A stretch of DNA of 64,000 nucleotides, taken from assembly GCA_963971535.1 (NCBI GenBank), contig OZ020589.1, positions 68,983,239-69,047,238 on the forward strand, read 5' to 3'. The notes under the pieces were generated by a model that saw only the letters and a list, made by a program, of their open reading frames with translations, was not told where the DNA came from and made no database searches. Below, in pieces: positions 32,845 through 50,912 of the stretch (position 1 is its first letter; each line of letters opens with the position of its first letter). Both the position numbers and the translations under genes were made by a program. This stretch comes from Notolepis coatsorum. Taxonomy: Eukaryota > Chordata > Actinopteri > Aulopiformes > Paralepididae.

Positions 32845-35800
32845 TTAAATGCTAGCTTTTATTCTCTCCACCACTTCTAACCACATTGTCAATTTGGATT
32901 CATTGAGACCCAAAATTCTTGCTGTAGATATTTCTAGATAAATCACATCGAGATATGTAAGAATCCAGACCTTTCGGCAATTTTTTTCCGGTTGAAACCA
33001 TCGTGGTGCTATCAGTTTTTTAGCCACTGTAATACCAGATAAAACCAATCTCTTTTGCTGTATAGGTACTGCATATTCAAAAACATCATTCAGCAGTAAT
33101 ATAGAGGGGTGTACAGGTATATTCAGAATTAAGAGATTTGATAATTGCTGGGTCACTTCTTCCCAGAATATATTAACTGGTGGGCAGTCCCAATACATGT
33201 GCATAAATGTCCCCTCGTCCCCATTTGTACATAAGGAGCATTTGGAGTCTTGTTTAAGACCCATTCTGTTCAGTCTTATAGGAGTCAAGTATGTCCTATG
33301 AATATAGTTAAGATGATTTGTTGATGGTCCGGGTTCCTTGATGCAAGTTGAACATTTGCCCAGGCTTCTTGCCAATCAAAATCTTTTTCTAGGTCTGGTA
33401 TATCCCTCCTCCAAACAGAGTCTAGGTGGAGGGTTTCATACGAAGCCGTTAGTAATTGATAATAAAAATCTGATACAAAACCTCTCGATGTCTCTCTTTC
33501 ATAGAAAAAATTGTGGTATCTGTGGTGTGCAATTGGTATCCTTAATGGAACACCGTGAGTCTTCAAACATAACAATAATTGTGCGTAAAAAAGATATGTG
33601 GAACCGGTGAGATACATTTTTTTTCCTATTTCATCATAGCTACAAATACCCTGTTTGTTGAAAACATCTCCTAATGTATGTATGCCTTGCTTTTCCCATC
33701 TAGGGAATCTTATAGGTCGTTTTTCTAATCAGGAGTGCATTGTTATTGAATAAGGGAGTATGATTATGCCATTTATGTGGATTAGAATATTTTTTTTGTG
33801 TTTCACGCCATATCCGGATCGCATGTGTAATTATGGGGCCAAATTTCAGTTCGCATTGCTTAATTGATATTTTGGTGTATACTATGTCCTGCAGTCTCTG
33901 TGGTGCTACTATATTTACTTCTAAATTTCTCCAGGTTACTGATGCTTGGGGTTCAAACCAGGTTGTCAGTGGTCTTAAAGTGTATGCCTTAAAATAGTGG
34001 AAAAAATGTGGGTTTGCCATCCTTCCGTCAGCTTTGTTTCTATGTGGTGGTTTGTTATTCCAAATAAATTTATATGCGGAAGAGTGTAATTTTTTCCAGT
34101 AACCATCTGGAGGGGGTAACGGAAGCATTGAGCTGATGAAGTTGATTCTAGGTAAGACATCCATCTTAACTATTGAAACCCGTGCCTGTACTGAGTTTTG
34201 AAGTTTTGACCACCTGTCAAGGTCGTATTTGATTTTATTTTGGATTTCTATGTAATTGTGTTTCACCGTTTGGCTTATGGTAGGGAATACTTCAACTCCC
34301 AAGCATCTAAAGTGTTTAACCATTGGTATTTCTTCTGGAAGACTTGTAATCTTTGCAGGGGCGTTCAGTGGAAGGAAAGCCGACTTTGGCCAGTTTATTT
34401 TAAATCCCGATAGGTCGCCAAAGTCATTAATCAACTTGAGAAGATGAGGCATTGCGGTGTTAGGGTTTTACATGAACAGTATTACGTTGTCCGCATATAG
34501 ACTAATTTTGTGTTGTGTGCCCTTGATTACGATTGGTTCTATGAGTTGGGATTGTCTTATATATTGTGCTAAAGGTTCTAGTGATAAATGGAATAGTCCG
34601 GGACTAAGAGGGCAACCCTGTCTAGAAGAGCGTGATACCGGAAATATTCCGGAGGTGATTATACCTGTTGTAATCATGGCCGATGGGTCTTTGTATAATA
34701 CTTTAATCATATCAATGAATCATTTTCCTAACCCCATCCTTTCTAATACTGCCCATAGATACGACCATTCCAGCCTATCAAAAGCTTTCATTGCATCCAG
34801 GGACAGCATCGCCTTGGGTGTGGTGTCGTCCTTGCTGGCATCTAGTACGTATAGTAATCGTCTTATGTTGTCAGTGATCAAACGGTTTCTTATGAAGCCA
34901 GTTTGATCCGGATGAACTAAAGACGAAGTCTGATGGCTAATACCTTAGAGAACAGTTTGATATCGGTTCCGAGGAGGCTTACGGGTCTATAACTACCGCA
35001 CTCGGTGGGGTCTTTGTCTTTTTTAAGGAGGACTGTTATGAGTGCAATATTGTCGTTCTTATGAAAGTTCCCCTCCTTGACTGAGTATAAAATCATATTA
35101 AGTAATAGGGGTCCAATTATGTCCCAACATGAGAGGTACATTTCTGGTGGGATACCGTCTCTTCCAGGAGCCCTACCACTTTGCATTTCGGATATGGCCT
35201 TCCTGAGTTCCTCTAATGTGATTGGTGTTTCTAACTGTTTAGCATCATCCTCTGAAAGTTTGGGGAGGTTAATTTGATTAACACTTTGAGTGCCACGCCG
35301 GGTTTTCCTTTTTACCCCCTGAATGCCACCATCGGCGCCAATGTTAACGTTAATATCGCCTAATCTATGTTTTAAATTATGGCTGTGTCTAATCTGCCCA
35401 TCGCATTATCAAAGACTATTTTCCAGTCAGTGCTGTCGAGGCAGATTGGTTTTTTATCGCGTCATTTCCGTTTCAGAGCATTTAGAAAAGCACCCGTTGA
35501 GAGATAAAAAACAGCCCAAATCGTCTTTTACTGGAATATTCCACAACGTTGATATTCGTCGGCCTTTTTATGAATCGTTTTCAAATAAACGCTAGATGAT
35601 CAATATTATACGTGCACGCAAGCACATTCGGGCCGCGCACGGATAATCGCCGCGTTGATTTCCTCTCTGACTTTTACAGTGAAACCGAAACAGCCCATTT
35701 CACAAAACAGCTTATAACTTCATCAAAATTAGTCTGATTATCCTAACACTGATAACATAGAGTCCTTACCTGACATCAGATGGTATCCAACTGGTATATT

Positions 35801-37500
35801 CCAATTCCTGATCACCATTCGAAAAGATAAGTGTATAAGTCGATAAGTGTATGGATCCAACGCGATACAGTAGAACTCCATGATCAGCGGGTCTCAGAGT
35901 CTCCAGAATGAACTGTGGTAACCCCGGCTGGATCAGTGAACTGTAAAATATGGAGTACCGGATTTTTTTCCCCATCCATTTTCATTGAGTCCATTCCAAA
36001 ATCCCTTATGTCATCTGAAAGACGATAGGGGGCGCTTTTTTCCACATATGCTCTCCGGCGGAGCTTGTGTATACTCGGGTAGGCTCGCGTGATGCAATAT
36101 GATTTCAGATTGCTGAAAAATAATAATAATTCCGAGAAATCTCGTGAGTGGCTTTCAACCACATAAAAATAAACCCGAGATATCTCGTGTGTGGCAGTTA
36201 AAGTGTTAAGATATGTGTCCATTTTGTTTTGATCGAAGGTCGTTTCTGATTTATACAAGTTGGAGTAGAATTCTTTGAATGTCGTGTTTATTTCTTTGGT
36301 GTCTGTTACAAGTCCTTGTTGTGCTTTAATGGAGGTTATATCTGCAAATTTTGCGTTAACTCTTAATCGCGTAGCTAGTAGGTGACTTGGTTTGGAACCT
36401 TGAGAGTAATGCTGTTGTCTTGTGCTACGTATTTGTACTTCAGATTGTTGTCTGTAAATGGCGTTAATCTCTATTTTTAGTAAATTAACTTGAGATTCTA
36501 GTCGAGCCGAGTCGTTATATTGTAAAGAAGTAAATAATGTAGAGTAGAGCGTTTCTAATTCCGCCAGTTTTGAGCATCGATTCTTGCGTATTTTGGATGA
36601 AAAGCTATCCGTGAAATCCTTGATCATTCCCTTTACCGACATCCATAATATTCTAGGGTCCGGCACCGAGTTCACATTCTCTGGTAGGAATACTGAAAGA
36701 GCTTCTTTGAGTTGTGTAATGAATTCCTTGTTATTCAGCAGTGTTGTGTTAAAGCGCCATCTTGGGGCTCGGGATGATAGTACACCAAATGATCCTTTTA
36801 GGAGTAAATAACAGTGATCTGATAATGCATTGGGTACCATCTCCACTTCATAGTTATCAAATAGTCTCGGTGTTGCGAAAACATAATCTATTCTGGAGAG
36901 TGTTTTATGTCTTGCTGATCGACAAGAGTACTTCCGGGTCGTGGGGTTGAGTGATCGCCATAGATCATTTACACCTGTATTCTTTGCCCAATCCTTTAAC
37001 GCATTAGATGACTTTTTTTGTTCGTTGGAAAAGTTGGGATAAGATTTATCCAACCCACGGTCCCAAATGGCATTAAAATCTGCACCAATTATAAATGAGT
37101 ATTCTGGAAGGTTTAACATTTCCCTAGTGAGTGCAGTGTAGAAATTATTTTCGTATAGATTTGGGGCATATACCGCTACCAACGCTATTTTCCTATTCTT
37201 GTGTATAATCTTAGCTATGGTTATCCGACCATCTGCATCAGACCATACTCCCTTCAATTCAATATTCAATTTCCATTTCACGACTATAGCAACTCCACAG
37301 GTTCTCGTTCCAAAGGAAGAGTGACTAATGTTATGGTATGTGTTGTCCGCTAACGTAGCTTTGTCTCCCACTAAAATGTGCGTTTCGCTTAAGAGAGCCA
37401 CATCAACCTGTTTGTTTTTCATCAATGTGAGCACGCTTTTGCGTTTATGTTGATTATTTATTCCCCCAGTGTTCCAGATCATTATATTCAAACTAGCCAT
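32845..37500 (-). pseudogene. L1/Tx1 ORF2, multiply broken
   Basis: Starts with ATG at 37500. Endonuclease motifs: NIMIWNTGGINNQHKRKS, LLSETHIL, IIGADFN, LSRIDYVF, NALSDHCYLL. After the MITE at 35282-36205 the frame resumes with the RT: SGRAPGRDGIPPEMYL, KDPTECGSYRPVSLLG (about 35186-34917), then RSSRQGCPLSPG and LYADN in place of YADD (34468-34710). The thumb and connection region (33700-34452) follows, then the C-terminal zinc knuckle CSLCTNGDEGTFMHMYWDC (near 33230). At least four frame breaks separate these pieces. The YADN motif, lacking the second catalytic Asp, would by itself inactivate the RT. Confidence 0.8.
35282..36205. mobile_element. piggyBac-like nonautonomous element in L1 ORF2 (924 bp)
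   Basis: TTAA flanks both ends (35278-35281 and 36206-36209). The termini are CACTTTGAGTGCCAC and CACTTTAACTGCCAC (minus strand). Without the element and one TTAA, the L1 reads through as KMDTYLN then QINLPKLSEDD in one frame, so the insertion site is exact. The interior is noncoding and contains CGAGATATCTCG-type palindromes. The ORF2 frame that appears to run on to 35884 is element sequence. Confidence 0.85.
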
Positions 37501-38156
37501 AATCTATACATATTGATTTGTATTTGTTGGTAATATTTCTGGAGTGCGAATTCACAATGGATTTATATCCCACTGTTGAGGTCCTGTTGAGAGCCGAGCA
37601 TAAAAACATACATACAAAAAAAAACCTGAACCCCCCTCCCTTACAGAGTCGTACAAGGTACCTATTTGATACCTCCTTCGCGTACAACCTCTTCCTTTCC
37701 TGCACCTCCGGTCTGCCCAGAATGAGCAATTTATCCTAATCTTTCCTATGTATACCATAGGATCTATGCTTTAATTCTAATTTAATAGAATGTCACCTGT
37801 GACCAAGCCTCTCTCCCCTTAATGTAATTATAACAGAATGAAAATTATATCTCGATTGGTATACTCATTTAAACCTATTTTTTTTCTTTTTAAACCTTCT
37901 ATTAACATTTATTGGTTAGAACATTTCAGAATAACGAAATAAAGAATAAGAAATAGTGATGTTTTGAATTAGATATCGAAAACCCATCTAATCCGGGAAT
38001 ATCTACTTACATTTTTTAAATACCTTTGTATGTTTACACATCTAAACAACAAGGCGATTTTAAATACTTGTATGCAGATCGTCCACCGTCATGCGTGATC
38101 ATTAATCTGTTATGGTGGTCGTTGTTCTTCACGTCTATTTCATGACCAAGACTCAT
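37501..38156 (-). other. L1 inter-ORF region
   Basis: AT-rich, no gene seen on either strand. It lies between the ORF2 start (37500) and the transposon end (38157), so it is most likely the L1 spacer between ORF1 and ORF2. Confidence 0.45.
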
Positions 38157-38170
38157 CCCAGATAGCAAAA
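38157..38170. repeat. Left terminal inverted repeat of the Tnp2 transposon
   Basis: CCCAGATAGCAAAA, the exact complement of 50519-50532. It is followed by several TCAACATTG/CAATGTTGA-type subterminal motifs up to about 38440, which may be transposase binding sites. Confidence 0.8.
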
Positions 38171-38764
38171 AATCGTTGAATCAACATTGTGTTTTTGTCA
38201 GGCTGAAGATTGGAATCAACATTGATATCAGACATAGAAAATGGCATTGAAAGTGCTCGCTATGATCAACATGGAAAGAACATTGGATTTTCAACCAAAA
38301 TTTTGAAATTTCAATTTGAAAGCCGACAATGAATCAACGTTGATTCAACTATGATATGAGCAACATTGAAATAATGTAGCATTGCATCAACATTGATTCA
38401 AATATATATATATTGCATTATACATTGAAATAATGATATTATTGAATGACCATTTCAGCACTTTTTCAACCTTCCTCTGTATGTTTTTAATATGCCTCAT
38501 TAATAAAGAAAAATAATCACTTTACATCTAAATTATATTATTAGTTGTAGTTCCACCGGGAGCATGCTAAAAGGTGTCTACTAGTGACATTACTGCCATA
38601 TGCCTGAATGGCAGTGATGTCACTGATAGACAGGCTTGGAGCAACCCCTGCAGAACTTTAAAACACCAAATAGAGTAAAGTGATTATTTTTGGCTTAAAT
38701 GAGACATATTAAAAACATACAGAGGAAGGTTGAAACATGCTGAAATGGTCCATATGCTTTACTG

Positions 38765-38936
38765 CAGTGGTTCTCAACCTTTTTATACAAAGACCTCACA
38801 GGAAAAATATTTGGGGACTCCAAACTTGATTATAATTATGCCATTCTAGGTGAATATTCGAAAATATGTTGCAAGCTTGTAGATCGGCTATTTCGAATTT
38901 TTTTCTTCTTCAAGAAACCAAGGTTGAGAACAGCTG
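38765..38936. mobile_element. hAT-Charlie-like MITE
   Basis: Begins CAGTGGTTCTCAACCTTTTT and ends with the near-complement AAGGTTGAGAACAGCTG. It is flanked by CTTTACTG (38757-38764) and CTTTACGA (38937-38944), an 8-bp duplication with two changes. These are the classic ends of hAT-Charlie elements. Noncoding. Confidence 0.8.
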
Positions 38937-38974
38937 CTTTACGACATGCTCTATGAACAAAGAAACAGACAATG

Positions 38975-40040
38975 TATTGCTTTAACCATTTATTAAAGCC
39001 AATTAATTCGCACATACATATTCTTTGAAATGCCTCTCTTTCTATTAGACTTCGATGCCAACTATGCACGTGGCTCCAGATCAGCTGACATTCAGCTGAC
39101 TCTCCCATACAAAAATGACAGAATAATAAGTTATTGAAAATATTCATACAGAACTCTGAACCTTCGCACATACATATTCTCTTTGAAATGCCTGAGTTCA
39201 ATTTGGATTTAGTATCACCAGGCGTGCATGAGAACAGATAATGAAATCTACTGTAATGTACAGTAGCTTTTTTATTTTATCAGGGTGGCACCATTGAAAC
39301 TATTTAATGATGCGTGTCCCTTCTCTTTCTATTAGACTTCGATGCCAACTACGCACGTGGCTCCAGATCAGCTGACATTCAGCTGACTCTCCCATACAAA
39401 AATGACAGAATAATAACAGTTATTGAAAATATTCATACAGAACTCTGAACCTTCGCACATACATATTCTCTTTGAAATGCCTGAGTTCAATTTGGATTTA
39501 GTATCACCAGGCGTGCATGAGAACAGATAATGAAATCTACTGTAATGTACAGTAGCTTTTTTATTTTATCAGGGTGGCACCATTGAAACTATTTAATGAT
39601 GCGTGTCCCTTCTCTTTCTATTAGACTTCGATGCCAACTACGCACGTGGCTCCAGATCAGCTGACATTCAGCTGACTCTCCCATACAAAAATGACCGAAT
39701 AATAACAGTTATTGAAAATATTCATACAGAACTCTGAACCTTCGCACATACATATTCTCTTTGAAATGCCTGAGTTCAATTTGGATTTAGTATCACCAGG
39801 CGTGCATGAGAACAGATAATGAAATCTACTGTAATGTACAGTAGCTTTTTTATTTTATCAGGGTGGCACCATTGAAACTATTTAATGATGCGTGTCCCTT
39901 CTCTTTCTATTAGACTTTGATGCCAACTACGCACGTGGCTCCAGATCAGCTGACATTCAGCTGACTCTCCCATACAAAAATGACCGAATAATAACAGTTA
40001 TTGAAAATATTCATACAGAACTCTGAACCTTGAACCCCTA
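38975..40040 (+). repeat. 289-bp tandem array carrying a copied transposon exon
   Basis: Four units, the first partial. Each contains CTCTTTCTATTAG (a splice acceptor), then ACTTCGATGCCAACTACGCA and GTGGCTCCAGATCAGCTGAC. This matches exon 43999-44058 of the element's DUF4806 gene with its upstream intron, in inverted orientation. The rest of each unit matches 49190-49470 in the same transposon (CTACTGTAATGTACAGTAGC palindrome, GGTGGCACCATT) in direct orientation. The array is therefore built from two parts of the element's own family. Confidence 0.8.
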
Positions 40041-40293
40041 TAGAATCTTCCAGGAAGTGTTGTTTTCCAAAATTCCAACGCAGAATCAAATCTAAAAGTT
40101 AAATCTATCTAAAAACACTTTTACCTATTGCTAAACTAAGTATAATACTTCAGAGTATTATAGAGACACATTAGAGATGTACATCTATATAATATATTCA
40201 CATCCACACTATAAATAGCATCCATTAATCCATCATTAATCATCACTCCATTCAGACTACCGACTACTGACAACCTTCTGAACTTGAATAAGC

Positions 40294-40705
40294 ATGCAAA
40301 ACCAACAATTAGCATTTCAGGTGGCAGACTGCCTCTCCCGGGCGCACGTCAGCCCTGTGCACCCGGGCATCGACTATGCTGCCATGGCTGCTGACCAGCT
40401 CACCGACTCAGACCTTCAGGCGTTCAGGACGGCTGTGACAGGACTTCGACTTGAGGATGTGGTGTTTCACGACAGCGGCGCCACGCTCCTCTGTGACGTC
40501 TCCACTGGCCAGCCCCGCCCCATGGTTCCAACTGACTGGCGCCGCCGGGTATTTGACACCATTCATGCCCTTTCACACCCTGGGGTAAAGGCGTCGGTCA
40601 AGTTGGTAGGGGCCAAGTTCGTCTGGCCGGGCCTTAGGAAGGACGTCAAAGTATGGGCGGCCTCCTGTGTGGCGTGCCAGCGTGCCAAGGTACATCGTCA
40701 CACTA
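40294..40705 (+). mobile_element. Ty3/gypsy pol fragment
   Basis: A short piece of a Ty3/gypsy polyprotein, from the end of RNase H (ADCLSRAHV) through the integrase zinc-binding segment (HALSHPGVKAS, then CVACQRAKVH). No LTRs are present. Fossil fragment, incomplete. It runs directly into the minisatellite. Confidence 0.75.
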
Positions 40706-42085
40706 AGGTCTGGAGGGGGGCTGAGTCTAAACTAGGGGGTGGTCCTGAGGGGGGTTGAGTCTAAACTAGGGGGTGGTCCTGAGGGGGGCTGAGTCTAAAC
40801 TAGGGGGTGGTCCTGAGGGGGGCTGAGTCTCAACTAGGGGTGGTCCTGAGGGGGGCTGAGTCTCAACTAGGGGGTGGTCCTAAGGGGGGCTGAGTCTAAA
40901 CTAGGGGTGGTCCTGAGGGGGGCTGAGTCTAAACTAGGGGGTGGTCCTGAGGGGGGCTGAGTCTAAACTAGGGGGTGGTCCTGAGGGGGGCTGAGTCTCA
41001 ACTAGGGGGTGGTCCTGAGGGGGGCTGAGTCTAAACTAGGGGGTGGTCCTGAGGGGGGCTGAGTCTCAACTAGGGGTGGTCTGGAGGGGGGCTGAGTCTA
41101 AACTAGGGGGTGGTCCTGAGGGGGGCTGAGTCTAAACTAGGGGGTGGTCCTGAGGGGGGCTGAGTCTAAACTAGGGGGTGGTCCTGAGGGGGGCTGAGTC
41201 TAAACTAGGGGTGGTCTGGAGGGGGGCTGAGTCTAAACTAGGGGGTGGTCTGGAGGGGGGCTGAGTCTCAACTAGGGGTGGTCTGGAGGGGGGCTGAGTC
41301 TAAACTAGGGGGTGGTCCTGAGGGGGGCTGAGTCTCAACTAGGGGTGGTCTGGAGGGGGGCTGAGTCTAAACTAGGGGGTGGTCTGGAGGGGGGCTGAGT
41401 CTAAACTAGGGGTGGTCCTGAGGGGGGCTGAGTCTCAACTAGGGGGTGGTCCTGAGGGGGGCTGAGTCTAAACTAGGGGGTGGTCCTGAGGGGGGTTGAG
41501 TCTAAACTAGGGGGTGGTCCTGAGGGGGGCTGAGTCTAAACTAGGGGGTGGTCCTGAGGGGGGCTGAGTCTAAACTAGGGGGTGGTCCTGAGGGGGGCTG
41601 AGTCTAAACTAGGGGGTGGTCCTGAGGGGGGCTGAGTCTAAACTAGGGGGTGGTCCTGAGGGGGGCTGAGTCTCAACTAGGGGGTGGTCCTGAGGGGGGC
41701 TGAGTCTAAACTAGGGGGTGGTCCTGAGGGGGGCTGAGTCTAAACTAGGGGGTGGTCCTGAGGGGGGCTGAGGCTCAACTAGGGGTGGTCCTGAGGGGGG
41801 CTGAGTCTCAACTAGGGGGTGGTCCTAAGGGGGGCTGAGTCTAAACTAGGGGTGGTCTGGAGGGGGGCTGAGTCTAAACTAGGGGGTGGTCCTGAGGGGG
41901 GCTGAGTCTAAACTAGGGGGTGGTCCTGAGGGGGGCTGAGTCTCAACTAGGGGGTGGTCCTGAGGGGGGCTGAGTCTAAACTAGGGGGTGGTCCTGAGGG
42001 GGGCTGAGTCTCAACTAGGGGGTGGTCCTGAGGGGGGCTGAGTCTCAACTAGGGGGTGGTCCTGGAGGCTAAATTAGGGGGTGGT
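40706..42085. repeat. 34-bp G-rich minisatellite, about 40 copies
   Basis: Units of 33-34 bp: GGGGGGCTGAGTCTAAACTA followed by GGGGGTGGTCCTGA. Variants include TCAACTAG for TAAACTAG and GGTCTGGA for GGTCCTGA. Each unit has two or more G-runs, so the plus strand can form G-quadruplexes. The array begins inside the gypsy fragment, so it probably grew from gypsy sequence. Confidence 0.9.
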
Positions 42086-42235
42086 CCTGGAGGCTAAACT
42101 AGGGGCTAAACATATGCACGCACGCATGCACGCGACAGCTGCAACCAGAGATGCTGGAGATAAATGTTGCCCCTGGATCAGCTTCCAATGATCCAACTCC
42201 CATGAAACCCACTGTCCTCCAAACCATTTGTCCTT

Positions 42236-45200
42236 TTAAGTCTTTGTCTTTCTTCGTATCCCGCCATTCCTCTCAGGTGCATAACGCAGCCACTTCTGCA
42301 GTGCATCTCTGTATATCAAGTCAGTCAACTTGCGGTCAAATTGACGAGCAGCCGCTGGGAAAAAAGAAAAAAAGAATACTTAAAGATAAACAAGAAAGCT
42401 GCAGTGGACACGTTCCATTCCAAAGTGAACAGTGTCCTTTTTAGTGTACTAGATTTTCAGGTGGCCTTAGGTGCATTTTCAACCCCATAGTCATATAATT
42501 GATCCACATTAATGCTCGTAAAAAATCTTATTGTGAGCATTACAGAGGACCACTTATATGACGTTAAGGTTGGAAATGGGTGAGGTGTTTCTTTAAGAGT
42601 GGTTGCATGTTCCATCAGGCTCATTCCATGGTGATAAAAATGCATCCATTCGTATTTACTTGAGATAAAAGTGAAAATACTTAATTAAATGAAATATCCA
42701 TCATCAAAATAGCTAAATCCACTGTAGTAAACCTAGTATTTTGAGGTGCAGATTGACTCACCAAACATGCAGTCCTGCATCAGTGTGTCCTTGAAGGCCC
42801 TCTTCGGTCCCTTTCCCGCCCAGTTGAAGATGCATGCTAGACAGTTTGTCATGGTAGCGGATAGCATTCGCCGGATCATATTTTCTGAGTTGGTCCCTCC
42901 GATTAATGCCAGGCGGGTTGTCTTAACAGATTGGAGAGGAAAAAAAGTGAGTGTGCTAAAGTGTACATTGTACTATGTCAAATGGACAGAATATGATGTT
43001 TCAAGTACACATTTTAAGACTTTTTTTTATTAACTCTAAAGAAAGACCATTACTGTGTCAAAACTCAACAAACAATACCATCAAACAAATTAGCTAAATG
43101 AATTGTCAAATATTGACTAAGAAATAAATATCATCCCGCATATCATTGCAAGGCTATTTTCACAATATTTCTATGCCAAGCACACATCCAAGCAAAAAAC
43201 TAAATAAATGCCTCCACTCCTACAATTCAGACATTATAAACACTTAGATTTCAAACAATACATTTTTAACAAAATACAAAAAATTTCACCATCTTTCGAC
43301 GGACTGTTTCGTCCTTCAGTGCAGCTTCAGCCTCATCAAACTGCTCCTCATTGGTGAGTGGCAGCACGATGGGGAAGTTCTCTTCTCTCTGTGATTCAGG
43401 TCCAGCTCCGTGATCGTTAAAGGTGGATTTAGCCATTTCAGTCTTCAGAAACTGAACGTCATGTGAAATTTGCTTCACCTCCACGAGTAGCTCTGCAAGC
43501 ATCCTGGTGTTTTTGTTGGCAGCAAGGTCTTGAAGAAAAACAATTGGTTTTACATTAAATTTCAAGGATAGATTCACCATTTCAATCATTTAGAATGACA
43601 CTAAGCAATAAGGGCCTTCAGCACATTCAAATCACGTCTAATTAAAGGGATCATCACATGACAACAACGTTACTATTTACATTTAAATGTGACGCTTAAG
43701 TCTTTGCACCCCTAACTTATAGTAACCATTAAGTGCTTAAATATTAAGCCTATAAACACCATGACAAATTACATGAAAAAAAAAAGTGACAAAGACTGTA
43801 AAGTCACAAGGGACATATGTTTCTCAATGCATCAGAAAATGATACTTGCCTTGTAACATTTGACTGGGCTCTCCATGGAATCTTCCCCGTGGCGTTTCAG
43901 GAGCTGAAGCTGAAGAAATCAACATGGCATCAGCATTGCACATTAGGTAATTGTGTATGGGGGAGGCGGGGGGTAAAGTGGAATATAGGCATCTTTACCC
44001 AGGCGATGTGAGTTGAAGTCAGCTGATCTGGAGCCACGGCTATAGTTGGCATTGAAGTCTAATAGAAAGAGAATAAAGGACACACATCATTGTTTACATT
44101 GAACACGAATTATGGAATTTTACCCAAAAAAACAACATTTAAGATGAGAAATGCATACCATTCCTTGCTCGCTCTGATGGCACAGTGTGGTAGGGTCTGG
44201 AGTTATACATTGGCTTTCCTAGAGAAAGAGCGACAGAATTAACAAAATAAGGTAAGCACCATTAAAGTATCAATGAGCACCATATACAGTAGCAAGCAAA
44301 AGACATACCATTCCTTACTTGTCCAGTGTGGTTCCCTCCTGAAATGGATTAAAATAACCGTAATTAGTCACTGTAAAATACAAGTTCTCATATAATATCA
44401 TGCCAACATTAACAGCTCATTGCAAAATAGTGAGACACTGAATAAGCTACTCATATATGCACTCAACTTTACATTTCCACCCATTTAACTAACATTTCCA
44501 GTCAGTAAGGTATCCAGTAAGGCAGGACTAGTAATCCAACCGCCACCTATTGAAACAGACTGGAGACACAAGAGTGGCTGAGAGAATCACATAGCTATAT
44601 CTAGTTTATTAATCTACTTAATCTACTTGCAGTGGTCCATTGACTCCAACTGTGCCAAGAAGCTTCCACCAAAGCCTAAAATGAGAGAACACAACAAAAC
44701 ATGAACAATGAATGCTATCAAAAGCACATTTACAATCTGTCCACCGGCTCCACCCTGACTTAGTAGTGTGAAGTGATTCACTTACCATTATTAGGCTGGT
44801 TATTCTCCGAGCAGCTTCCTCCAGAGACCGAGCAGCTTCCTCCAGAGACTAAAAGAAGGGAACACAAGACATGAATAGTGGACACTGTAACTTTTGAACA
44901 CATAACCTGACTGATATGTTTGGATGTATTGACAGAGGAACTAAATGCTTGTAAAGCTCTCATGCAACTACATTTTGTTCTGCTATGTTAGTAAATAATG
45001 ACATACCACTGCTTGCATTTGATGTTGGCACCGAGGGGTACTGGCTGGATTCTGGCTGCACTGTATTAATAAATAAATGGAATTATACATGGCAATACTT
45101 AAAGTAGGTGTAGCAGTTAGTGTCATAACTGACAAGTGTCACCACTATACCTGGGAAATGAACATCAGGTGGCTTGGCATATCTTCGCGTCACCCTGCTG

Positions 45201-45786
45201 TCTGGCTCTTCATCTGACTCCACTGCGTGCATATGATTTGTCCTAAAAAAAAAACATTTAACATTCCCAGGCTCCCAGGATAATTCAATTAATTTAGCAA
45301 TCCTTGAGACACTGTTCAGGAGCCAGCCCATGGCCCATTTCTGTTTAACCAAAAACTATCACGAGGAATTCAACTGTACCTTGCTCTTCTTTTCCGACGT
45401 ACATCTGCTTCCTCTTCAGATTCCAAATCAGTGGTTAGACATCCAGTAGTCACGTACTTGTCTTCATGTTGCTTGGCCTTTACAAATGAGTCTGTAAAAG
45501 AACAAGCAGAAAATACAGCATGACATTAATAAGAAGTATGAGGAACAATTCACATCAGACAATAGCAGTGACTATACTTACCACAAGTAATTAAGAGCCG
45601 AATTTTGTCATATGTGGTCCATCCTTCACAGGGCATCATGTTTTCTTTAAGGGCCTTTGAATAATTTGTGTTTTTTGGGGGCCATAATAATGTACCTTCC
45701 GTTGGATTGAACCAGCTGGAAAGAACTGTTGCAGTTCCGCCATTTGGAAACAGTACAACGCCCCAGAGCACCACCTCACTTTCCAT
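42236..45786 (-). CDS. DUF4806-domain protein, 12 exons, transposon partner gene
   Basis: Predicted exons, in order on the minus strand: 45582-45786, 45380-45491, 45151-45242, 45007-45060, 44786-44848, 44309-44338, 44159-44218, 43999-44058, 43850-43903, 43290-43528, 42762-42921, 42236-42354. All have AG acceptors and GT donors except a GC donor (GCAAGT) after exon 9. Lengths sum to 1,248 nt, giving 415 residues with no stop. The N-terminal exon reads MESEVVLWGVVLFPNGGTAT (a conserved opening of such proteins), then acidic and basic linkers, Gly/Ser-rich short exons (VSGGSCS twice) and the DUF4806 domain: LPLTNEEQFDEAEAALKDE, LALIGGTNSENMIRRMLS, NWAGKGPKRAFKDT, LIYRDALQKWLRYAPE. Its role in transposition is not established. 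Accessory proteins of this type accompany Tnp2 transposases in animals. A cryptic acceptor near 44689 does not fit the phase. Confidence 0.75.
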
Positions 45787-45861
45787 TCTGTGTACAATAA
45801 ATTAAATTAGAATATTAATGATAAAAAAATTATAATGACAAAAACATGAATCATAAGATGT

Positions 45862-48466
45862 CTACTGCAGATGAGCTATTGGAATAGCTATGAGGCTATT
45901 TCCCTCTGGATACAGAACACATTTACGTTTAATAAAGCTAATTTTACCAACCCCGATCTCATCACACAACTCTCTAACCTTGTATGTACCTATGAGGGAG
46001 GACTCGCAGGGATAAGTGTAATATAATTCTTGGTGTCTGAACTTTCTGTAGATCACATAGACCTCACCTTCTTCCTGGACTATATTCTGCACTACTGCAA
46101 TTGTATCTCCCACCTGAATACAATTATCCCCCTGCTTTGTAGACAAGGTAAAACGACAACTGGAGACCTTTGTGTACTGTAGAGCAACACTGAAATGTTG
46201 AGGAAGTGGACCATCAGTATGAATGTGCTTTAAAACTGGTTGATCTGTTGCTAATGGAACCTCAACATGTGGCATTTCTGACAGCCTTTTGACTACCTGT
46301 TGTAGAGGTTGGTGTGGCTTGCGTAAAAGATGCTTTATTTGGCCAAGATAATTCTCAAAAGGGAACCCTGAAACATTATCTAAAGGTCCAAATTGTTTGT
46401 ATTCATCTGCTAAATGTATAAGCTGGTGGACACTGAACACAATCTCACCCGTACCATACAACTGTCCAAAGTGGCCCACAAAGGATATCATTAATCTATG
46501 TGCAAATTCAACCATTTGGCCAGAAGTTCCAGGAGACAAAAACAAATACATGGCCACTGAAAACAACATGAAGTTGTCATAAAACTCACTGGGAAGGCAA
46601 TCCTTCAGAACTACAGGACCCCAGTATAACATGAAGGATCGGAGCTCAGTAGCTTTCCAACGATCAAGCTCATTCAAACCTCTTGGCTTGCGATTGAATT
46701 CAACAGGGGTGTGGGAATGTAACACCAGCAGTTTGCTTGATATACTGTTAGGGAGGCTGCAATTCGAAACTGGCCACCGTAAATGCCCAAAACCCCCACC
46801 ACCTCCTAATAGACAGTCTCCTCCCCACCGCATGTATATATTCCCTCCCCGCCGCATGTATATTTCCCTCCCACCCACCCACCCCCTCCTAATGTACAGT
46901 CCCCTCCCCATCATATGTATATACTCTGTCAGGATCTAGGGGTAACAGTACTGTATATTTGAATACCGCCTATGTCACAAATGTATCAGTACTAAATACC
47001 TATATGTCCCTATGCCATAAATGTCATGTATGTTGTGTATGTCATAAATGTCTATATGAATTGAAAATGGGGGACCCTGATGGAAACAAGACAAACGTCT
47101 TTCTCAGGTCTGCATCCCCTTAACAATTGTATGTATTGAGCCGTACTGTATTGTACCCATTCTGCAATCTGTTAAATAAAGTTTTCATTCATTCATTCAT
47201 TCATTCATTCATTCATTCAACTGTTTGTGAAGGAAGCCTAGTGGCTAGATTGCCCTTTAACCACATATGCAACAGTTTTCTCATCAACCCAAGACAACAG
47301 AGGTGCATATAATCTATTGGGAATGAAGAAACCATCTTTACTATCCCTGTTAAAGGACTGAGTTTCTGTTTCAAGTGGTGTTCCTCATCAATCATATCAC
47401 AATAACTCGAATCCGTCCTGAGCCTGACATTTGTTTCTGGATACGTCATTTTGTTCCTCCACACACCCTCTTGGTCACACTTGTCACACCCTGAATAACC
47501 ATTATGTGACTTAATATTCTTAACGTAGGCCCTAGCAGGAGCATCACACACAAATGAGGAAACCTGTACATTCAATTTCTTACCATTATGAACAATGCCA
47601 TTAGCCAGCACATTTTTAAGGTCGCTAACAAATTTCTGCAGATACTCAACAACACACTTTGGCTTGCTTAAACCACTAAATATACCGACAATAAATGGGG
47701 ACTTAGTGTAATCACAATTCAGGATTGCAAGTATAGGCCAGAATTGAAGTCTTGAACTCCTAAAGAGGGGGAGACCATCTATATTGAACTGTAAAGTAAG
47801 AGTTGTGAGGTTCACTGGTAAACTTAAACATTTTAATCGTGAAAGTATTCCTCGCACCAATCCAAAATGATAGTACTCGCCACCTTGCATTTGAGTGGTT
47901 GCAACATGAGATTGTGTTCCAAGCAGAGTCCTTCCATCTTTAGGGAGCTTAGGGTGAAATAGCTTTAAGATGGACAGCAGAGCAGACAAAGCAACAAGAC
48001 TAATGGAGTAGGATGTTGCCCAATATCTTAGGCTCCTTATAAGCAGATCCTGACTAGGCGGCTGCTCCTCATCGCTCTCATAGTGAGAATCTGATTCATC
48101 TTCATCATTGCCAGCTTCATCGTCTATATCATCATTTTCCATTTGCATATGATCAACTTCATTTCGAGCTACTGCACTACCATCAGAATGATCATTTTTC
48201 ATTTGCACATCGGACTCAACTTCATCATTGCCAGCTACACTGCCATCTATATGACCATTTTCTATGTCTACATGTGAAGCTGGTAGTGCATCTAGTTGGG
48301 AAAAGTGTGAGCTTGTGAAGGCAGGTTCCCTATTCACACAGGGGTAAATATTTTCTCTTTGATTATGCAGAGATTCCTCATATTCCTTAAGGATATCTTT
48401 CTCTATGCCCCTTACAGTTCGAATGACTCTACGTCTTTTAGCCCAATACGATTCATAAGAAGCCAT
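45862..48466 (-). CDS. Tnp2/Transposase_21 transposase, interrupted by LINE A
   Basis: The start ATG is at 48466 and the stop at 45862. The coding parts 48466-47220 and 46750-45862 total 2,136 nt, that is 711 residues, in one frame if LINE A (46751-47219) is set aside (LPSQTV then NSISSKLL). N-terminus: basic (YWAKRRRVIRTVRGIE), then an acidic region with imperfect repeats (residues 70-135). DDE catalytic core: Asp230 in NIDGLPLF, Asp308 in FVCDAPARA, a GCDKC zinc pair (327/330), DYMHLCCLG (385-392), and a Glu in the second part at GFPFENYLGQ. It would cut and rejoin the element ends in the nucleus. Only 75 bp separate its stop from the DUF4806 ATG. As it stands the LINE insertion disables it. 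Confidence 0.8.
46751..47219 (+). mobile_element. LINE A copy inserted in the transposase gene
   Basis: 5'-truncated LINE A 3' UTR starting GGGAGGCTGCAATTCGAAAC and ending (ATTC)n. No convincing target duplication is present. Joining the flanks base to base restores the transposase frame, so the insertion appears blunt. It is among the youngest events in this nest. Confidence 0.8.
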
Positions 48467-49704
48467 CTTAACCCATTAACTCCCGGATTGAAAGGTATAT
48501 AATAACGTATAGGTTACAACAGGTCTAAATAGAAAAGAGGTGGTGCTGATTATAATTTTTTTGTTATTACTTGGCCTTTTTTTTGCAGTGAATCCTCCAG
48601 TCCTCTTCTCTTGTAGCACAACCCTGAAAATAGAGGGGAAAAAATTATTAAAATAATATATGCATAAAACAAATATATATATCAGCCAAATTATTAATTT
48701 ATCAGGTCCTTCCAACATATTTTAAAATATTTAACCTCTTCCACCCGGAGCCTATTTTCTGAAAATCCGCCTAAAATATATACCTAGGTAAATGGAATAT
48801 TGCTCCACTTCTACAAGGGCCATTTGCATATTCTTGTATAGCGTCATCTATCTATCTAATGTATATTCACAGTGTCAGAAATATTGTGTCTATTACTAGG
48901 CTTGCTTAAATTGTGATGAAACAAAGGAGAATATTAATTATGATTTTTCTTTGCATCTTTGACAGTGAATAACACCATGCTAATAATGACCAAACATTAA
49001 AAACTGCCACTGATCTTGTTCAATACCTTCTTGAGTGTAAAATAAATAAAGGGAAGATTATTAAACAGAAGGTTCTGTAGATACTGTACTGAATTCTCCC
49101 ATCCGGACCAATGTAATTTGAAATATTATCATAGAATATACAATAGCAGGCTCATAAATTACCTTATTATAGCCAATTCGCACATTTATATATATACATA
49201 TATTATCTTTCAAATGCCCGAGTTCAATTTGGATTTAGTATCACCAGCGTGCATGAGAACAGATAATGAAATCTACTGTAATGTACAGTAGCTTTTTTAT
49301 TTGATCAAGGTGGCACCATTTTGAAACTTTTCAAATCTAATTGTTGCTGAATGCTAACAATAGGGAAGATAAACTAACTATGTTTCAATATTTGTCATAA
49401 ACGTTACCTTTTGTGGTAGAATGATCTCGAATAATAGCAGTTATTGGAGTCATTCTCGAAGTCAACTTCCTTTCTGTTTAACTTTCTGTCTAAGTGCATG
49501 TCTATGGCTTGGGGGGGAAACATACACTTTAGAATCACCAAAAAAGGCTTTCGAAATAGTGAAATGCCATGTTGGCCTCAATATTTTCAAAACAAATTAT
49601 ATGAAAAGGTTATGAAATCAACAAGAATGTGGTAAAATATGTAATAAAAACAGAGCTCAACGCAGACATTTGATCAGTAGAAATCCATTTGTTTCCCCCA
49701 TACA
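48467..49704 (-). promoter_or_regulatory. Transposase leader and upstream region
   Basis: No coding region. A plausible acceptor (TCTATTTTCAG, minus strand, about 48624-48634) lies in front of the ATG, so a 5' UTR intron is possible. 49190-49470 is the segment reused in the array at 38975-40040 and includes a CTACTGTAATGTACAGTAGC palindrome (about 49273-49292). 48719-49180 is AT-rich and featureless. Confidence 0.45.
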
Positions 49705-49730
49705 AAGATGGCGCCGTTCTCGTGACGTCA
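49705..49730. promoter_or_regulatory. YY1-like and CRE sites upstream of the transposase
   Basis: AAGATGGCG (49705-49713) fits the YY1 core, and TGACGTCA (49723-49730) is a perfect palindromic CRE. Together they suggest a TATA-less promoter about 1.25 kb upstream of the transposase ATG, which would fit a long 5' UTR or first intron. This is inferred from motifs only. Confidence 0.4.
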
Positions 49731-50035
49731 GAGTGTAGCTGACGTTAGCTTGCTAAGCTATCAGATTCGCATGGTCTGTGTAGCTGGCTAAAGCTAGCAG
49801 ACTCGCATGGTCGAGCTGACGTTAGCTTGCTAAGCTATCAGATTCGCATGGTCTGTGTAGCTGGCTAAAGCTAGCAGACTCGCATGGTCGAGCTGACGTT
49901 AGCTTGCTAAGCTATCAGATTCGCATGGTCTGTGTAGCTGGCTAAAGCTAGCAGACTCGCATGGTCGAGCTGACGTTAGCTGGCTAAGCTAGCAGACTCG
50001 CATGGTTGAGCTGACGTATAGCTGACGTACGTTAG
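49731..50035. repeat. 77-bp tandem array near the transposon 5' end
   Basis: Three full and one partial unit, starting GAGCTGACGTTAGC at 49813, 49890 and 49967. Each also has AGCTGGCTAAAGCTAGCAGA. TGACGT half-CRE sites occur in each unit. Its position between the right terminus and the transposase suits an enhancer or transposase-binding array. 50036-50518 has only the subterminal TCAACATTG-like motifs and a G-rich run near 50300. Confidence 0.7.
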
Positions 50036-50518
50036 CTCGCGCTGTTATAAGTTAACGCTACTTTCCAGGCCGGGGGTTTTGACATTTTCAAACCGTGAAA
50101 CCGGTTACCGGCACATGCCTAATGTGAATAGCATAATACATTATATTGTCAAGGACTTACCAAAGACGTGTGCGCACTTGACTAGTCACGCTGAATGAAG
50201 ACACCATGGCGCCAAGTTTTTCTTTTAATGCCTCAAGTCCCGTGAGATCTTCTAGCTGGCCTCGCGAGTTGCTTACGACCTACCCCCTCGAAGGGGAGGG
50301 GGGAGGGGAGGGGGGATTATCAGCACTACGTTGTAACCATGTAATTTCATTGTTGGGCATTTCAACATTGAAAAACAAGCATCTATACTAAATCGATTCA
50401 ACAACAGTTTTTCAAATGTTGAAATGGTGTCTGTAATTTAGATATTGAATAAACATAGCTTTTTCAACCTCAACCAAAAATAACCAATCTGACCAAAATC
50501 CAACATTTAATTAATGTC

Positions 50519-50532
50519 TTTTGCTATCTGGG
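50519..50532. repeat. Right terminal inverted repeat of the Tnp2 transposon
   Basis: TTTTGCTATCTGGG, the exact complement of 38157-38170. L1 ORF1 sequence follows within a few hundred bases, which places the element between the two L1 ORFs. Confidence 0.8.
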
Positions 50533-50912
50533 ATATCATTGTTATTTCACGGGGGCCATCATTGAAAAAGGTATTGTATTCCATAGTGCTGTCAGCCGCT
50601 CGTTACTTGCAGTTTGATGCTTTAATGTTCCAGAACATTCCTCGTGCCCTAAAACAATAACCATCCAGTGTATTCCAGAATATTCCGTTATGACTCATAG
50701 CCTTCAAGTAAGAAAAATAGAGTATAAAAATCTAGAATGTTCCAAAATGGTCGGTATCAAATCAAGATCTGCATATTACCGTGAATCTATATTTATATGG
50801 TGTTTAGCGTTTTATATCAAATTACTTATTTCTCAATGTTGTCAAAAGTTTGTATGTTGCCGTTTTTTGATGTCCATGCAATTGTAGAGTTATCCGTGAA
50901 AGATGAATCTTG

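Follow-up and report, generated by a model that had tools for sequence, protein, structure and literature searches.

Plant CACTA transposons carry repeated motifs close to their ends and generate 3-bp target duplications. TNPA of maize Spm is thought to bind these subterminal sites and to pair the two ends. In animals, the closest described systems are the TRC elements ('Transposon Related to CACTA') of Schistosoma, Aedes and Tribolium, which have ends starting with CCC and 2-bp duplications (DeMarco et al. 2006, PMC1636069). Here we analyse a stretch of 64,000 nucleotides from the fish Notolepis coatsorum (assembly GCA_963971535.1, contig OZ020589.1, positions 68,983,239 to 69,047,238 of the forward strand), hereafter the 64-kb window, and describe a transposon copy which spans its positions 38157-50532. 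We conclude with high confidence that this is a two-gene cut-and-paste transposon of the CACTA (En/Spm, CMC) superfamily, belonging to the animal TRC type with CCC ends.

The passages cited from PMC1636069 propose that CCC in animals corresponds to CACTA, and mention homologues in zebrafish, with ends definable only in Schistosoma, Aedes and Tribolium. The Tribolium end reads CCCTAGTAGC..., and the 9.2-kb Aedes element has the ends CCCAGTCAAC (PMC1636069). In Hydra, EnSpm-4N1_HM displays CCCAGCCAACATTGAC ends and 2-bp duplications (PMC4298943). Zebrafish CMC-EnSpm has CAC ends, the terminal inverted repeat CACTCAAAAAAAT and two proteins (PMC11202377), and the termini of the CMCT group are CA..TG in most cases (PMC12730594). 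The first-pass annotation of this DNA held that animal relatives of the transposase normally end in CACTA/CACTG. As a general statement this fails: CCC ends are described for TRC elements (PMC1636069) and for Hydra (PMC4298943), so that non-CACTA ends are expected in this animal group. It does apply to some fish, as in the case of the zebrafish repeat (PMC11202377).

Ends, target duplications and related copies

The window copy is 12376 bp long and lies on the minus strand, with both genes reading from right to left. Exact inverted copies of the 14-bp sequence CCCAGATAGCAAAA delimit it, at 38157-38170 on the plus strand (left, distal end) and at 50519-50532 on the minus strand (right, transposase-side end). 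The perfect inverted ends seen at first pass are thus confirmed; they are not canonical CACTA/CACTG ends. Immediately outside lie the two copies of a 2-bp target duplication, AT at 38155-38156 and an equal AT at 50533-50534.

The first-pass annotation had suggested looking for the same ends elsewhere in the assembly and reading the duplication from empty sites, and both approaches were productive. In the window alone the 14-mer is weak evidence: with up to two mismatches, 2 matches were found where 0.63 were expected, and 11 of 100 shuffled sequences also reached 2. The scan of the 3.42-Gb genome is decisive. (In this genome a RAG1 profile matched seven pieces on one contig, whereas 14 control genomes gave no match, which makes a jawed vertebrate the probable host.) The exact 14-mer occurs 2233 times (1112 forward, 1121 reverse), as opposed to 4 times (2 + 2) for the reversed pattern used as a control. 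Contig 1 accounts for the first 100 places, of which 78 are ends in 39 inward-facing pairs and 22 are single ends. The pairs are spaced by 4.4-35.8 kb (median 13.0 kb); among neighbours within 60 kb in this sample, two were outward-facing and none were on the same strand. Furthermore, the window's left end taken at a length of 29 bp, in the form typical of the lineage which we call A, was found at 75 + 83 places genome-wide with up to two mismatches, and its reversed control at 0 + 0.

Insertion produces a precise 2-bp duplication. The flanking dinucleotides agree in all 24 end pairs read and represent ten different sequences; a 3-bp agreement was seen in none of the 10 pairs tested by script. 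The 24 pairs comprise 12 of 12 from the first 30 loci, 10 of 10 further pairs on contig 1, the window copy and the copy between the ends L061 and L062. All were chosen with both 14-mers exact, and 23 of them were drawn from the 39 contig-1 pairs. An empty site was found for an insertion of a second lineage, B: a 15.6-kb B-type element between the contig-1 ends L016 and L017 is inserted in a repeat. When its flanks are fused with one AT, they match copies of the target repeat at 95-99% in the 40 places scored out of 4489 candidates. The nine best align over 196 bp without gaps, with 1-2 mismatches and a single AT each. The window itself contains, at 35307-36104, a distant empty relative (80%) of this high-copy repeat.

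The L061/L062 copy (C1:74698086-74710092) measures 12007 bp between ends identical to those of the window copy. The main blocks of the two copies are 98.4-99.4% identical; their tandem arrays are of unequal length, and a few stretches occur in one copy only. A search with the N-terminal part of the A transposase gave 102 matches, mostly 98-100% identical (the best 100 of 1370 candidates). Many of the matches listed lie in an open frame of 714 amino acids (aa), and some carry stops or are partial. Leaving the window aside, the 29 A-type loci with the highest scores show a median pairwise identity of 99.53% (92.81-99.98) over ~4.2 kb, a value which overstates that of the whole family. Judged from these sequences, the A-type family looks young.

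Lineage B shares the outer 14 bp with A and has somewhat different inner ends. Its unit at C1:46589810-46604148 (14.3 kb, interior L068/L069) encodes a transposase which is 63% identical to that of A (452/720) and contains one stop. A search with the 483 C-terminal residues of B returned 88 matches at 99-100% identity, many in a 707-aa open frame (the best 88 of 920 candidates). In A and B, pieces of the partner gene follow the transposase in equal order. The two-gene organization proposed at first pass, a transposase with a multi-exon partner, is therefore found in both lineages.

Shortened units are also present. L064, L065 and L066 retain the ends, partner exons and a scrap of the N-terminal transposase, and by all appearances are internal deletion derivatives. 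The same ends thus bound a unit of about 12 kb (12007 bp for L061/L062) as well as its derivatives (L064-L066), as anticipated at first pass. Between the ends of L063 neither transposase nor partner gene was recognised, and in L067, which is B-type, only the last partner exon was recognised amid tandem repeats. Most of the L067 interior consists of a tandem array, whose translations in several frames give repeats such as IDPLNTVIDP. Another B-type unit, L070/L071, harbors partner exons together with nested retroelement frames of the BEL/Pao type (Pao peptidase, DUF5641 and Integrase_H2C2).

The transposase and its class

In the window, the transposase gene is divided by an insert of 468 bp (46751-47218), which carries a tail of TTCA repeats and is absent from the L061/L062 copy. 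The first part (47219-48466, minus strand) extends from the start codon to the insert and includes D230, D308 and the CxxC motif. The second part (45862-46750, minus strand) includes the HxxxH motif, E548 and a weak DUF4218 region, and extends to the stop codon. Accordingly, the minus strand shows two open pieces, 48475-47213 and 46935-45862. The L061/L062 copy encodes an uninterrupted transposase of 711 aa within its 714-aa open frame. On the evidence of its sequence, the window copy cannot encode a full transposase of its own because the 468-bp insert interrupts the frame.

The residues D230, D308, CxxC 327-330, HxxxH 524-528 and E548 are all identical in A and B. Both proteins display the order D, D, C(2)C, H(3-4)H, E of the CMC signature (PMC12730594). 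Of the boxes given in PMC1636069, the A transposase contains box I (223-245), the eumetazoan box A (384-393) and CxxC (327-330). The B transposase contains CxxC and, if its stop is rendered as X, box I.

The comparison with TRC elements is favorable on several points. SmTRC1 of Schistosoma mansoni and the elements of Aedes aegypti and Tribolium castaneum have in common with this family the CCC start, the 2-bp repeats, box I, box A and CxxC (PMC1636069). Extra proteins beside the transposase and truncated derivatives are likewise shared (PMC1636069). The 2-bp direct repeats are reported for 7 of 14 SmTRC1 copies. The inverted end is a perfect 14 bp here and 54, 27 and 10 bp in the TRC elements; the unit here reaches 12-14 kb with long passenger repeats; and the partner belongs to DUF4806, whereas SmTRC-PrA and SmTRC-PrB are given no family in the cited passages (all PMC1636069).

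Other systems are similar in part. Like EnSpm-4N1_HM / Spongebob_HMa of Hydra, the element starts with CCCAG, creates a 2-bp duplication and has CAACATTGA-like letters close to the end (the Hydra end being CCCAGCCAACATTGAC); the Hydra element measures 5.8 kb, its consensus transposase frame is broken and its ends otherwise differ (PMC4298943). Two proteins, deletion derivatives and repeated subterminal motifs are shared with plant CACTA elements (En/Spm; TNPD/TNPA), whose target duplications measure 3 bp. Plant elements end in CACTA (PMC1636069), unlike the CCC ends found here. Zebrafish CMC-EnSpm is, like the element here, a large two-protein element of a fish; its ends start with CAC instead of CCC, a comparison made by description only (PMC11202377).

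The zebrafish ends bear on an explanation offered at first pass, in which a canonical CACTA/CACTG-ended animal EnSpm lineage would recently have changed its end recognition. The presence of CAC-ended EnSpm in fish (PMC11202377) and the CA..TG termini of most CMCT elements (PMC12730594) fit such a change. Yet CCC ends with 2-bp duplications are already known from TRC elements of flatworm, beetle and mosquito (PMC1636069) and from Hydra (PMC4298943), which points to a widespread animal end type, and A and B, 63% identical, are both CCC-ended. We consider a recent change very improbable, and retain the assignment to the CCC-ended TRC type.

Several observations weigh against this assignment. Pfam Transposase_21, a TRC feature according to PMC1636069, gave no match to the 711-aa protein at E <= 1, in which the element departs from the TRC description. 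Since the motifs which PMC1636069 places in that domain are present, we take the missing match to reflect divergence from the Pfam model; its absence nevertheless weakens the TRC claim. The 'Transposase_21-type transposase with a D-D-E core' of the first-pass annotation is thus upheld for its DDE-type residues and lacks support for its Pfam family. DUF4218 matched the A transposase weakly (E 0.013), below the cut-off. The genome search with PF02992 (Transposase_21) revealed a single locus above the cut-off, L072, which is unrelated to A, with no significant similarity between the protein it encodes and the A transposase. The AlphaFold2 model of the transposase, built from two input sequences, had a mean pLDDT (predicted confidence) of 32.6, and a PDB sequence search matched no solved structure. 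Box A of lineage B misses the strict pattern at its first residue. On the favorable side, nonsynonymous divergence (dN) between A and B is 0.246 and synonymous divergence (dS) 1.24 (NG86, 689 codons); a dN/dS below 1 suggests selection on the transposase protein, though dS is near saturation. The assignment itself rests on ends, duplications and motifs. Among the papers listed by a literature search for the CCCAGATAGC end letters and their reverse complement, which did not cover Repbase or Dfam, none was recognisably on this element.

Linkage of the ends to the genes

The ends belong to the transposase and partner genes, because two lineages share ends and gene order and because most transposases are linked to the far end. 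A correctly oriented A-type far end was found within 25 kb of 54 of 78 A-type transposase matches (median distance 9.5 kb), where chance would give ~0.0006 per transposase copy. This analysis used 78 of the 102 match rows and the first 100 of the 158 end places; the rows set aside were 22 on contigs or at positions outside the end listing and 2 that represented second pieces of copies already included.

Two figures count on the other side. Under the same limits (up to 2 mismatches over 29 bp, 25 kb), 24 of the 78 matches had no correctly placed A-type far end; some of these are partial or carry stops, and one match has another A-type end nearby which is wrongly placed. In addition, no scored transposase accompanied 45 of the 100 A-type ends listed. 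These may be deletion derivatives, or may lie beside unscored candidates.

Such orphan ends, together with paired-end copies lacking a transposase match (L063, L067), would also be compatible with the second explanation raised at first pass, namely that the CCCAGATAGC ends belong to another element which captured both genes. The unit does carry passengers. An open frame at 40288-40758 (plus strand), shared with the L061/L062 copy, contains an Integrase_H2C2 domain (E 7e-16) and probably represents a fragment of a retroelement or integrase that the unit carries along. Internal repeats are a 34-bp minisatellite of ~40 units (40713-42064, plus strand), with a related array in the L061/L062 copy, and a 289-bp tandem repeat of 3.5 units (39035-40031, plus strand). 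A 77-bp tandem repeat lies by the transposase-side end (49737-50006, plus strand).

However, capture is difficult to reconcile with two lineages whose transposases are 63% identical and which agree in ends and gene order, and with the linkage of 54 of 78 transposases to a correct end. Furthermore, no unrelated DNA transposase was recognised in nine paired-end units (the window, L061/L062 and L063-L066 as whole units; L067, L068/L069 and L070/L071 as interiors), Pfam having been run on selected frames. Apart from the Integrase_H2C2 passenger, the foreign mobile-element genes recognised in these units were the nested BEL/Pao-type set. None of the copies examined had CACTA-type ends, which were not searched for systematically. 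We therefore hold capture by another element to be extremely unlikely and treat ends and genes as one transposon.

The DUF4806 partner gene and its possible role

The partner gene lies downstream of the transposase on the minus strand. The first exon found (45582-45786) starts with MESEVVLWGVV, has a GT donor and corresponds to a homologous piece in B. Exons with AG/GT borders follow at 45380-45491 and 45151-45242, the latter partly conserved in B. Two further exons are predicted from AG/GT borders and open frames (45007-45060 and 44786-44848). The model is incomplete in its middle, between 44786 and 43526. Beyond this interval, the exon at 43290-43526 contains the start of DUF4806 and has a 5′ border which is not fixed, 42762-42921 contains the main part of the domain, and the last exon with the stop codon lies at 42236-42354 and has a homologue in L067. 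Single exons scored below the cut-off for DUF4806 (PF16064). Joined, they reached 37.1 bits in A and 27.7 bits in B, with a curated cut-off of 25, in agreement with the DUF4806 partner named at first pass.

The subterminal motifs, put forward at first pass as candidate binding sites, are concentrated at the ends. In the window, TCAACRTTG (that is, TCAAC[A/G]TTG) matches 8 times against 1.28 expected, a number reached in 0 of 100 shuffles. Six of the 8 matches fall inside the element, no more than 240 bp from one of its ends; they represent 5 of the 7 sites, one being a palindrome that counts once per strand. The left cluster (38181-38395, plus strand) accounts for 5 of the 8 matches at 4 sites, and a TCAACATTG site stands by the right end (50362-50370, plus strand). 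The L061/L062 copy has 6 matches in its 12,007 bp, none farther than 240 bp from an end, and the matches in L063-L066 all lie no more than ~170 bp from one.

Taken together, these features outline how the element would move. The transposase, most probably of DDE type given the anatomy of the element, would cut at the CCC...GGG ends; the excised element would then enter the target at cuts with a 2-bp stagger, and this would yield the 2-bp target duplication. The partner, whose domain is BEN-like, would most likely play the part of plant TNPA by binding the TCAAC[A/G]TTG(A) sites and helping to pair the ends, a guess based on its domain and on the clustering of the sites. Internally deleted copies, having kept their ends, have presumably been moved in trans. 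A DUF4806 protein as TNPA-like end binder is plausible and represents the less expected feature of this transposon.

DUF4806 is described as a subtype of BEN, and BEN domains are predicted to recruit chromatin-modifying factors (PMC11075544). The partner might, instead of binding the ends, act in silencing or in interaction with the host, or derive from a captured host gene. The passages on the domain found in the literature draw no link between DUF4806 and this transposase. What speaks for a function within the element is that the multi-exon gene is kept collinear in A and B, and that L064, L065 and L066 retain partner exons after losing most of the transposase, which exceeds the expectation for a chance passenger. 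A role in silencing or towards the host, or an origin as a captured host gene, is quite possible though less likely than not, and end binding remains our preferred reading of the partner.

As many copies are near-identical and contain a full-length transposase frame, the family is a candidate active vertebrate CACTA element, possibly usable as a tool if active. One may go further and imagine a currently mobile vertebrate CACTA-type transposon whose BEN-like (DUF4806) end binder is the animal counterpart of TNPA, with an evolutionary origin of its own, recognising palindromic TCAACGTTGA-type subterminal sites; such an element may have given rise to the DUF4806 genes described from zebrafish and Hydra. 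We regard this broader scenario as speculative and, as a whole, rather unlikely.

The element is a good new example of the already described CCC-ended animal branch of CACTA transposons and not a new kind. Its end sequence, target duplication, empty site and gene order are now settled for a vertebrate TRC-type element, an advance over the cited passages of PMC1636069, where ends are limited to Schistosoma, Aedes and Tribolium and zebrafish contributes homologues only. The DUF4806 partner and its candidate sites are the part most worth following, as they offer a testable partner for the transposase.

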